Shown one piece after another: positions 53,074 to 55,990 of a DNA stretch of 64,000 bases. The stretch's first letter is position 1, and each line of letters begins with the position of its first letter. Where the stretch lies: the NCBI GenBank assembly GCA_014360205.1, contig JACIXZ010000006.1:1-64000 (forward strand), given 5' to 3'. Under the pieces are notes generated by a model. The model was not told where the DNA came from and ran no database searches. It was given only the letters and a program-made list of their open reading frames with translations. The DNA is from Tissierellales bacterium. GTDB taxonomy: Bacteria > Bacillota > Clostridia > Tissierellales > Tissierellaceae. Made by a program: the position numbers and the translations under genes.

Positions 53074-53107
53074 AAAAATTCGGAAGGCAACCTTCCGAAT
53101 TTTTTAT
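53074..53107. terminator. Bidirectional terminator, aminotransferase/kinase
   Basis: AATTCGGAAGG pairs with CCTTCCGAATT around a CAA loop (centre about 53089), with A-rich sequence before and T-run after, so it can stop transcripts from both sides. It overlaps the end of the leftward histidine kinase gene. Confidence 0.86.
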
Positions 53108-54159
53108 TTAGGCAGTTTTACTGTTATTGTAGTTCCTTCTCCTATTTCACTTTCTAAGGTGATTAAACCATTGTGGTATTCTACAATATGTTTAACTATT
53201 GAAAGGCCTAACCCAGAGCCTTCTATTTTTTTTGACCTCGATTTATCTATTCTATAAAATCTTTCAAATATTCTATCCTGTTCTTCTTTTGGGATGCCTA
53301 TACCAGAGTCCTTAACAGAGATGACACCATAATTTCCTTCATTATAAACAGAAACCAATACCATACCATTTTCAACATTGTATTTAACAGCATTGTCAAT
53401 TAGATTATATATTAAATCTTCTATCATTCTTCTATTAGCAGATATGAAAACAGCCTCTCCTCTAACATCTAAATTAACTTTATGGGATATTGCTTGAGGA
53501 TTGACTCTGTTTACAATTTCATTAGCGATTTCATAAAGGTCTATATCTTCATAAGTTTTTTCTATAGTTTCATCTTCTAATTTAGAAAGGTTCAAAATTG
53601 ACTCTATCAAAGTTAAAAGCCTTGTACCTTCTTTTTTTATGATTCCGGCGAATTTTTGTACTTCATCACCTTCTACCATCCCATTTTCAATCATTTCAGC
53701 GTAACCATTTATTGAAGTTAAAGGGGTCTTTAACTCATGACTTACATTTGCTGTAAATTCTCTTCTTATCTTTTCGGCTTCTTTGAGATTTTCCATAGCC
53801 GTTTCTATTTGTTTTTTTTGTCTCCTAATCATTTCAACAAAAGGTTTAATTTCTGGATAAATCTCTGCATCCTCAACTTCCTCTCCTGATAAAATGCTCT
53901 CGATATTGTCTGCTGCATTTTTTATGGGAGAAAGTATTGTTTTAGAAATATTAGTTGATAGCATATACAATACAACTAATATCAACACTAAAATAGCTAC
54001 CATTGGGGGTAAACTCGCCGTAAAGACTTCAAAAAAAGTTAAATCACTAACAGCCATAGCCGAAAAATATTCATAGAACAACACATCAAGTACCAATGTT
54101 GTTATAAATAGAGTAGCTATGACTATAACTGTAAGATATTTAAATATTCTTTTCTCCAT
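53104..54159 (-). CDS. phoR: Sensor histidine kinase (PhoR type)
   Basis: Membrane sensor kinase of 351 aa with two transmembrane segments (about 5-28 and 42-62) around a short outer loop, a cytoplasmic linker and coiled coil, then the kinase core. H-box FTANVSHELKTPLTSINGYAEM (phospho-His near residue 145), N-box MIEDLIYNLIDNAVKYN, and G boxes VKDSGIGIPKEEQD and GSGLGLSIVKHI are intact. ATG at 54159 follows GGAGG; it starts next to the stop of the response regulator. Third gene of a leftward phoU operon, so phosphate sensing is likely. The sensory domain is unusually short. Confidence 0.86.
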   Translation of the reverse strand: MEKRIFKYLTVIVIATLFITTLVLDVLFYEYFSAMAVSDLTFFEVFTASLPPMVAILVLILVVLYMLSTNISKTILSPIKNAADNIESILSGEEVEDAEIYPEIKPFVEMIRRQKKQIETAMENLKEAEKIRREFTANVSHELKTPLTSINGYAEMIENGMVEGDEVQKFAGIIKKEGTRLLTLIESILNLSKLEDETIEKTYEDIDLYEIANEIVNRVNPQAISHKVNLDVRGEAVFISANRRMIEDLIYNLIDNAVKYNVENGMVLVSVYNEGNYGVISVKDSGIGIPKEEQDRIFERFYRIDKSRSKKIEGSGLGLSIVKHIVEYHNGLITLESEIGEGTTITVKLPK

Positions 54160-54160
54160 G

Positions 54161-54826
54161 TTAACCTCCAAATTTATAGCCAACGCCTCTTACTGTTTGA
54201 ATATTTTCTCCGGCATCGCCTAATTTCATACGCAAAGTCCTTATGTGCACATCAACTGTCCTAGTTTCGCCTTCAAAATCAAAGCCCCAAACTTCATTCA
54301 TTATTTGATCTCTAGATAATACTATATTCATATTTTTCATTAAATAATATAACAAGTCAAATTCCTTTAGAGTCAAATATATTTGATTTCCATCAACTTT
54401 AACTTCGTGTTTATCAACATCTAAGACTAGTTTTCCGCTTTGTAATACAGTAGGTTTGTCTGAACCAATATATCTTCTTAAAACTGCTTTAACTCGTGAA
54501 ATGAGTTCCATTACGCCAAAGGGCTTTTCAACATAATCATCTGCACCCATATCAAGTGCCCTTACCTTATCAAACTCACTAGTCTTTGAGGTAAGCATGA
54601 TTACAGGAATAGATTTTGTTGACACCATAGATCGAATTTTTTTTAGTATTGTATAACCATCTTCTCCGGGAAGCATTATATCTAATATATACAAATCAGG
54701 TGGGCTTTGTTCAAATAATTCTTTTCCACTTTCGAATCCCTTAACTTCAAACCCTTCTTTTTTCAAAGCATATATCACTAATTCCCTTATTGCTTCATCA
54801 TCTTCAACTATATAAATTGAATTCAA
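54161..54826 (-). CDS. phoP: OmpR/PhoB-family response regulator
   Basis: DNA-binding response regulator, 221 aa. The receiver domain (residues 1-115) has acidic residues VEDDEA, the phosphorylated Asp in YILDIMLPGEDGY (near residue 49), the TS of MLTSKTSEFD and the Lys of VEKPFG. The winged-helix output (about 125-221) ends in TVDVHIRTLRMKLGDAG and VRGVGYKFGG. TTG at 54826 follows TTGGAG by eight bases and lies after the phoU stop. Co-transcribed with phoU and the kinase; likely binds the PhoP-box-like repeats upstream of the operon. Confidence 0.88.
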   Translation of the reverse strand: MNSIYIVEDDEAIRELVIYALKKEGFEVKGFESGKELFEQSPPDLYILDIMLPGEDGYTILKKIRSMVSTKSIPVIMLTSKTSEFDKVRALDMGADDYVEKPFGVMELISRVKAVLRRYIGSDKPTVLQSGKLVLDVDKHEVKVDGNQIYLTLKEFDLLYYLMKNMNIVLSRDQIMNEVWGFDFEGETRTVDVHIRTLRMKLGDAGENIQTVRGVGYKFGG

Positions 54827-54831
54827 ATATA

Positions 54832-55482
54832 TCAACTCCAACTAAAGTGTTCACCAGTGATAGCATAGTATACCCATTCAGCGATGTTTTGAGCATGATC
54901 TCCAATTCTTTCAAAATATTTAGCTATAAGTATAAAATCAACTGATTGTTCACTTGAATATTTTTGATCTCTTATATATTCTATAAGCTCATTTTTCACC
55001 ATATCAAAAAGCTTATCTACTTTATCATCATGATAAATAATTTCTACTGCCTTATCCACATCTCTCTTAACAAATGCATTTATTGCTTCTCTAACCATAT
55101 ATATAGTTTCTTCAGCCATTTGTGGTATATCAATTAATTCTTTAAAGTATTTTTCGTTTGCCATACGAATTGTTAATTCGGATATATCGGCAGCTTGATC
55201 TCCTATTCTTTCCATGTCAGTTATCATTTTTAATGCTGATGAAATCAACCTTAGATCTTTCGCCACAGGTTGTTGCTGAAGTATTAATTTTAGACATAAA
55301 TCCTCTATATCTCTTTCTTTATCATTAACTTCCTTATCTCCAGTTGCCACTCTTTTAGCAAGGTCAACATCTTGATTTACAAGAGCAGACACTGCTGTCT
55401 CAATTCTACTTTCTATAAGATTACCCATTTCAATCAATTCTTCATTCAATTTCTCGAGGTCTTGATCAAACTTACTTCTCAT
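54832..55482 (-). CDS. phoU: Phosphate signalling protein PhoU
   Basis: Cytosolic regulator that links phosphate transport to the PhoR kinase, 216 aa. Two three-helix repeats are visible, each with the metal-binding signature: KMITDMERIGDQAADISEL and IAKYFERIGDHAQNIAEWV. I favour the ATG at 55482 (MRSKFDQ), nine bases after AAGGG; two earlier ATGs lie too close to that site. First gene of the operon. No Pst transporter genes are in the window. Confidence 0.93.
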   Translation of the reverse strand: MRSKFDQDLEKLNEELIEMGNLIESRIETAVSALVNQDVDLAKRVATGDKEVNDKERDIEDLCLKLILQQQPVAKDLRLISSALKMITDMERIGDQAADISELTIRMANEKYFKELIDIPQMAEETIYMVREAINAFVKRDVDKAVEIIYHDDKVDKLFDMVKNELIEYIRDQKYSSEQSVDFILIAKYFERIGDHAQNIAEWVYYAITGEHFSWS

Positions 55483-55514
55483 TGTCATCATCCCTTTTTA
55501 TGATTTATACCACT

Positions 55515-55578
55515 ATTATAATAGAAATAACAAAATTTTGTTAAAATATATGATAAAACAAAGTAAAATTAGTGTAAA
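55515..55578 (-). promoter_or_regulatory. PhoP-box-like direct repeats and promoter of the phoU operon
   Basis: Read leftward, TTTACA, TTTACT, TTATCA and TTTAAC begin at 55578, 55567, 55556 and 55545: four hexamers at an 11-base period (6 + 5 spacer). This is the architecture of the Gram-positive PhoP box. A TATAAT (55520-55515) follows 18-20 bases downstream. It suggests phosphate-starvation autoregulation of the operon. Confidence 0.68.
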
Positions 55579-55705: not shown

Positions 55706-55990
55706 ATGAGAAAGTATGAAATGATGTTAATCTTTTACCCTGATTATGAAGAAGAAAAAAGAAATGCTGTCATGGATAGATTAAAAGGTATCATCGAAAC
55801 AGATGGTAAAGTAGAAACTATTGATGAATGGGGTTTAAGAAAACTTGCATACCTTATCAATGATTATGCTGAAGGGTACTATGTATTGGTAAACTTCGAA
55901 GCTGGTCCAGATATTGCTAAGGAATTAGACAGGGTTTCTAAGATTTCAGAAGGCATTATGAGACATATGATAACTAAGATTGAAGAGTAA
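55706..55990 (+). CDS. rpsF: 30S ribosomal protein bS6
   Basis: Ribosomal protein of 94 aa that pairs with bS18 in the 30S platform. [20 protein letters not shown] at the start and the [20 protein letters not shown] segment are typical. AAGGAGGTG lies 7 bases before the ATG. First gene of rpsF-ssb-rpsR, behind a leader that probably allows feedback by bS6:bS18. Confidence 0.97.

Follow-up and report, generated by a model that had tools for sequence, protein, structure and literature searches.

A row of 11-bp-spaced hexamers upstream of the phoU-phoP-phoR operon of a Tissierellales bacterium most likely belongs, judging from its sequence and surroundings, to an already known type of operator, through which phosphorylated PhoP (PhoP~P) would autoregulate phoU-phoP-phoR. 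The row was found in the 64,000-nt stretch of DNA analysed here (the window; contig JACIXZ010000006.1), where a 214-bp intergenic region separates phoU from rpsF and carries the row on its minus strand. Rows like it precede the phosphate-transport genes of this bacterium and of its relatives, which makes it very probable that this is an ordinary binding site of the sensor's cognate regulator; the displaced spacing from the -10 hexamer is the row's sole mildly unusual feature.

Organization of the phoU-phoP-phoR operon

The operon is carried on the minus strand. The product of phoU (54832-55491) matched TIGR02135 above its cut-off (E 2.4e-66), and translation more likely starts at the ATG at 55482, as deduced from the ribosome-binding site. 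Downstream are a phoP-type response regulator gene (54161-54841), encoding receiver and Trans_reg_C domains, and a phoR/pnpS-type histidine kinase gene (53104-54183), encoding HisKA and HATPase domains (Pfam); coordinates of both are those of the longest frame, and the longest reading frames of phoU, regulator and kinase overlap. A two-component pair made up of a PhoB/PhoP-type regulator and a PhoR-type kinase is thus present in one operon. The best NCBIfam models were TIGR02154 (PhoB) for the regulator and NF046044 (PnpS), then TIGR02966 (PhoR), for the kinase, all of them below curated cut-offs. A PAS domain, which E. coli PhoR carries according to the accessible part of PMC6232261, gave no match in the window kinase (53104-54183, minus), where HisKA and HATPase were the only models found. 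The divergent neighbour, rpsF (ribosomal protein S6; 55706-55990, plus), lies outside the system.

PhoU of the window shares 94% identity with PhoU of S. longivitae and, by sequence, the window is from the genus Soehngenia or very near it. The expectation that phoU rather than the transporter heads the operon was borne out, phoU being located away from pst here and in six relatives.

The hexamer array at the phoU promoter

The Bacillus subtilis PhoP box consists of TT(A/T/C)A(C/T)A repeats, and their consensus, TTHAYA, was used for scoring. All positions of the array are on the minus strand. Hexamer 1 (TTTACA, 55573-55578) agrees with the consensus in 6/6 letters and is unchanged in both congeners, hexamer 2 (TTTACT, 55562-55567) agrees in 5/6 and is TTTACC or TTTACA in the congeners, and hexamer 3 (TTATCA, 55551-55556) agrees in 5/6 and occurs in both congeners with one more base in the preceding spacer. 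Hexamer 4 can be read in two registers: as TTTAAC (55545-55540) it agrees in 4/6 letters, which gives strict scores of 6, 5, 5 and 4, and as TTAACA (55539-55544), preceded by a 6-bp spacer, it agrees in 6/6. In the latter form it doubles as a -35-like hexamer placed 18 bp from TATAAT (55515-55520), the -10 hexamer of the phoU promoter. TTAACA-N18-TATAAT, with 11 of the 12 consensus letters, is the best promoter match in the region scanned, and the promoter region has a G+C content of 23%.

The original prediction described four in-register hexamers with 5-bp spacers, followed by TATAAT 18-20 bp on. All four are indeed present on the minus strand in 11-bp steps, and 19 bp separate TTTAAC from TATAAT (55520-55515); the fourth is one base off if read as TTAACA, an 11-11-12 arrangement that scores 22/24. 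Hexamers 1-3 are conserved in the congeners and the fourth is not.

The array's own score was compared with chance expectation. With 20/24 consensus letters, the strict 11-11-11 arrangement was equalled or surpassed by 248 of 3000 dinucleotide-shuffled versions of the phoU-rpsF intergenic region, for which reason it was dropped as stand-alone evidence; 12 positions in the window, the array itself counted, score at least 20/24 in the strict arrangement. The 11-11-12 register (22/24) was reached by 9 of 3000 shuffles with either spacing allowed, the shift to TTAACA having been picked after the sequence had been inspected. The phoU array is the sole match in the genome to a four-hexamer 11-11-12 pattern with two or fewer mismatches, for which the reversed control pattern gave six matches; the first loose pattern used found the window array only, and its control one match. 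Because shuffles and control pattern reach similar scores, the array alone is not proof, and the convincing support is its position and conservation.

A similar array precedes pst in the same genome

The pstS-pstC-pstA-pstB operon, recognized by family matches, is on contig 11, apart from the phoU contig. A scan for the same array upstream of pst genes had been proposed together with the prediction and, when run, it disclosed TTTACA-N5-TTAACA-N5-TATATT-N5-TTAATA upstream of pstS. Nowhere else in the genome is the three-hexamer pattern TTHAYA-N5-TTHAYA-N16-TTHAYA matched exactly. Nothing beyond this exact match stands out: with up to one mismatch tolerated, the pattern has 22 matches in the genome against 30 for the control. 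The pst array scores 22, a value reached by 8 of 3000 shuffles. Both congeners share it, a third genome (G003) does so for the most part, and the sequence upstream of it is poorly conserved. The proposed likeness to the Gram-positive PhoP box is in agreement with the three or four TTHAYA-like hexamers at an 11-bp period and with the arrays at pst of this genome and of its relatives.

A wider PhoP regulon in the window genome was considered and dropped, looser patterns not rising above control. Perfect hexamer pairs numbered seven genome-wide and seven in the control, with no enrichment; besides the pair at pst, five of six are inside open frames and one (L199) is upstream of an ORF resembling, by eye, a ribosomal protein. 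No convincing box was found before the PhoU-domain Na/Pi cotransporter gene of contig 78.

Arrays in Tissierellaceae and other Tissierellales

The family set comprised 28 genomes, 22 with a close PhoU and 24 with PstB; G012, G013 and G022 were excluded, as no PhoU or PstB match passed the thresholds applied, G007 keeps a remnant only, and the phoU contig of G025 is too short for scoring. In the relatives, names such as pstC and the place of phoU as the first gene of its operon were assigned from ORF order and the location of pstB elsewhere. Every one of the 24 family genomes that have PstB, among them the window genome, carries an array in front of the leading gene of a pst operon, a count that leaves aside the second pst systems of some genomes. 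An array also precedes phoU in all seven genomes where phoU is away from pst (three of Soehngenia, genus g1, and four of genus g3), and each of the four g3 genomes has two or more perfect hexamers side by side in it. Where phoU follows pstB (14 genomes scored), the top scores ahead of phoU were 15-19, with no two perfect hexamers next to each other, and it is pstS that an array precedes.

These data suggest a testable definition of the Tissierellaceae box, TTHACA-N5-TTHACA-N16/17-TTHAYA followed by 9 bp to the -10, which has few control matches. In the family, the exact N16 pattern gave 12 matches in 11/28 genomes (control, 4), ten of them at pst or phoU, and the exact N17 pattern 19 matches in 16/28 genomes (control, 1), all 19 at pst or phoU. 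Of the 31 matches from both scans, 29 (a remnant among them) are at pst or phoU; the two exceptions both come from G002. The scan of the order gave 43 matches in 39/249 genomes against 11 for the control, most members being without an exact match. Of the 24 order matches from outside the family, 23 had their surroundings inspected; in 21 of these a PstS-like ORF follows some 60-101 bp downstream, which is not so in the other two. All ten PstS-like proteins tested from under these extra-family boxes matched TIGR02136 (E < 1e-54), four of them above the cut-off. Among 80 phoU loci of named genomes, some genomes being repeated, 29 exact matches were found, with none for the control.

Several individual loci deserve mention. 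A second PhoP-like array was seen between pstS and pstC in G009, G010, G011, G024, G026 and G027 (loci L153, L154, L155, L162, L163 and L164; genera g5 and g12). One of the two G002 boxes (L166:1501-1539, minus) is about 650 bp before an ORF whose product, by eye, resembles Ppx/GppA exopolyphosphatase; a short arsC-like ORF intervenes, and the box may be due to chance. The other (L176:1501-1539, minus) is an orphan followed by TATACT 9 bp on, about 100 nt, a sequence that looks hairpin-like by eye and an ORF with no evident phosphate role; it may be a relic pst promoter or belong to a PhoP-dependent small RNA. In G007, for which PhoU and PstB gave no match at the thresholds used, a pst-type box and an apparent pstS start are fused to the 3' part of phoR (L180, contig C133), an arrangement that may reflect a deletion or a misassembly. 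Last, in six phoU loci of other Clostridia (L017, L036, L048, L050, L067 and L081) an exact box precedes an ORF resembling, by eye, a Na/Pi cotransporter.

Spacing of the array from the -10 and conservation in Soehngenia

Spacing was surveyed in 38 arrays which, having been picked for pattern resemblance, are informative on spacing. A -10-like hexamer begins 9 bp after the last hexamer in 24/24 pst promoters and 4/4 phoU promoters of g3, in 2/6 of the arrays between pstS and pstC and in 0/3 of the Soehngenia phoU promoters; the -10 criterion was four or more of six letters in AT-rich DNA, and the contrast is limited to the six pstC arrays and the three g1 phoU arrays. The window array does not have the 9-bp promoter-proximal spacing, its gap being 18 bp, and that of the congeners 20 bp from the nominal fourth position. 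The 9-bp spacing is a positional habit of leading promoters in Tissierellaceae and not a requirement for PhoP binding, and the putative array before phoU in Soehngenia is about one repeat, or one helical turn, further upstream than at pst.

Comparison with S. longivitae delimits the conserved parts. Identical columns were 24/29 across hexamers 1-3 and 35/36 from the -10 to the leader and start region, against 17/30 between hexamer 3 and the -10 and 16/40 upstream of the array. The displaced array can be read as three conserved predicted PhoP sites directly upstream of a -35-like element. With the 18-bp gap next to a near-consensus -35, phoU-phoP-phoR is more likely to be expressed basally and adjusted by PhoP than to depend on it strictly. 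The extra distance of about one repeat between array and -10 also makes the equation of a PhoP box with phosphate induction less certain for the phoU promoter than for pst.

Proposed function and alternative readings

We consider it highly probable, from the arrangement of the predicted sites, that the array serves as operator for PhoP, whose gene comes directly after phoU, and that PhoP~P would alter the expression of its own operon and switch on pstSCAB from a similar array. Four other readings were weighed. PhoP~P might bind and repress, or the site might be a weakening relic, hexamer 4 being at the same place as the -35 and the array having lost its canonical place close to the promoter. 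All three genomes of the genus depart from the 9-bp gap, with 18 bp in the window and 20 bp in its congeners, and the -35/-10 pair is close to consensus, both of which would suit this reading; so would repression of tagAB by PhoP~P, which appears in a title cited in the accessible part of PMC6232261. The reading is nonetheless unlikely, given that hexamers 1-3 are better conserved than the flanks on either side up to the -10 and that the 9-bp geometry is kept at the phoU promoter in the four g3 relatives. Coincidence, that is, an AT-rich region with an ordinary sigma-A promoter and hexamers that bind nothing, would account for the frequency with which shuffles reach the strict array and for the six control matches at equal stringency. 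It would have to account as well for the arrays before phoU in every genome with phoU away from pst, for their perfect adjacent hexamers in g3 and for the arrays that precede pst throughout the family and also in numerous members of the order, and we judge it very improbable.

The tandem 11-bp repeat format is common to OmpR-family regulators, the WalR word being TGTWAH. That the array is read by another member of this family, e.g. WalR, has in its favour this shared format, which the accessible part of PMC4415409 describes for the PHO boxes of several species; the concentration of exact matches at pst and phoU and the absence from the array hexamers of the G found at position 2 of TGTWAH make it a most improbable reading. 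Even less credence is given to TAACAAAATTTTGTTA (55528-55543), a perfect palindrome of 16 bp within the promoter spacer, as the functional operator. It takes up the greater part of that spacer, upstream of the -10, and shares bases with the -35-like hexamer; it was dropped as neither congener has it.

For the preferred reading, the array as a PhoP operator, the mechanism is modelled on known PhoPR and PhoBR systems, from which we infer PhoP binding, the direction of its effect and the response to phosphate and, with them, a phosphate-controlled autoregulation of phoU-phoP-phoR. On phosphate scarcity PhoR would phosphorylate PhoP, and PhoP~P would occupy one face of the DNA along the 11-bp repeats. 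Its molecules would be arranged head to tail, as the accessible part of PMC4415409 describes for an OmpR-type regulator. PhoP~P would then change, and most likely raise, transcription of phoU-phoP-phoR, positive autoregulation of phoPR being on record for B. subtilis (PMC6232261, accessible part), and would also turn on the separate pstSCAB operon through the similar array. At pst, where the array abuts the -10, strict dependence on PhoP~P would be expected; at phoU-phoP-phoR, expression next to the near-consensus -35/-10 would be basal and tuned by PhoP~P. Some confirmed PHO boxes are located at genes without obvious phosphate regulation, according to the accessible part of PMC4415409.

More tentatively, the sensor operon of Soehngenia might have been re-geared, the array having shifted by about one repeat and a -35 having arisen in the vacated place to give basal expression tuned by PhoP~P, with pst keeping the strict 9-bp design without a -35; this evolutionary account is possible but rather less likely than not to hold in full. 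The strict and the displaced box are contrasted here within one genome and, if the reading is true, they form a natural pair with which to gauge the effect of a one-repeat displacement on a PhoP promoter.

Comparison with known systems

The array is like the B. subtilis PhoP box in its hexamer sequence, its 11-bp period and its position before pst and before the two-component operon. It differs from the situation at B. subtilis phoPR in that the regulator operon of the window is headed by phoU, the array ends 18 bp before the -10 and hexamer 4 is not conserved. The pstSCAB-phoU operons of other Tissierellaceae (Tissierella and others) have the same hexamers at the same period before pstS; in these, unlike the window, phoU follows pstB and the arrays are before pstS, and also before pstC in g5 and g12, not before phoU. 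A 2006 paper in J Bacteriol reportedly deals with the pst operon of C. acetobutylicum. No PhoP box study in Tissierellaceae was among the matches listed, subscription journals being mostly outside the coverage. With E. coli the resemblance is one of format: an OmpR-type regulator sits head to tail on the 11-nt direct repeats of the Pho box (PMC4415409) and phoBR is autoregulated (PMC6232261), whereas the repeat word is CTGTCAT (PMC4415409) in place of the TTTACA of the window and phoU is inside the pstSCAB operon (PMC6232261), both sources being cited for their accessible parts.

Circularly permuted PstS

Outside Soehngenia, most of the examined PstS proteins show circular permutation: the part corresponding to the C-terminal half of PstS in the window organism comes first. 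Examples are the ORFs at L191:1606-2472 and L011:600-1541 and those of L212-L216, L221-L225 and L227-L233. Among 81 ORFs near boxes, collected with a relaxed pattern and including some genomes twice, 57 match both halves of PstS, 51 in permuted and six in canonical order, four match one half and 20 neither. No literature on permuted PstS was among the matches listed. The permuted form is already in the PDB, as the PstS 2 structure 4h1x aligns end to end with permuted PstS; 4q8r aligns with it in two swapped pieces.
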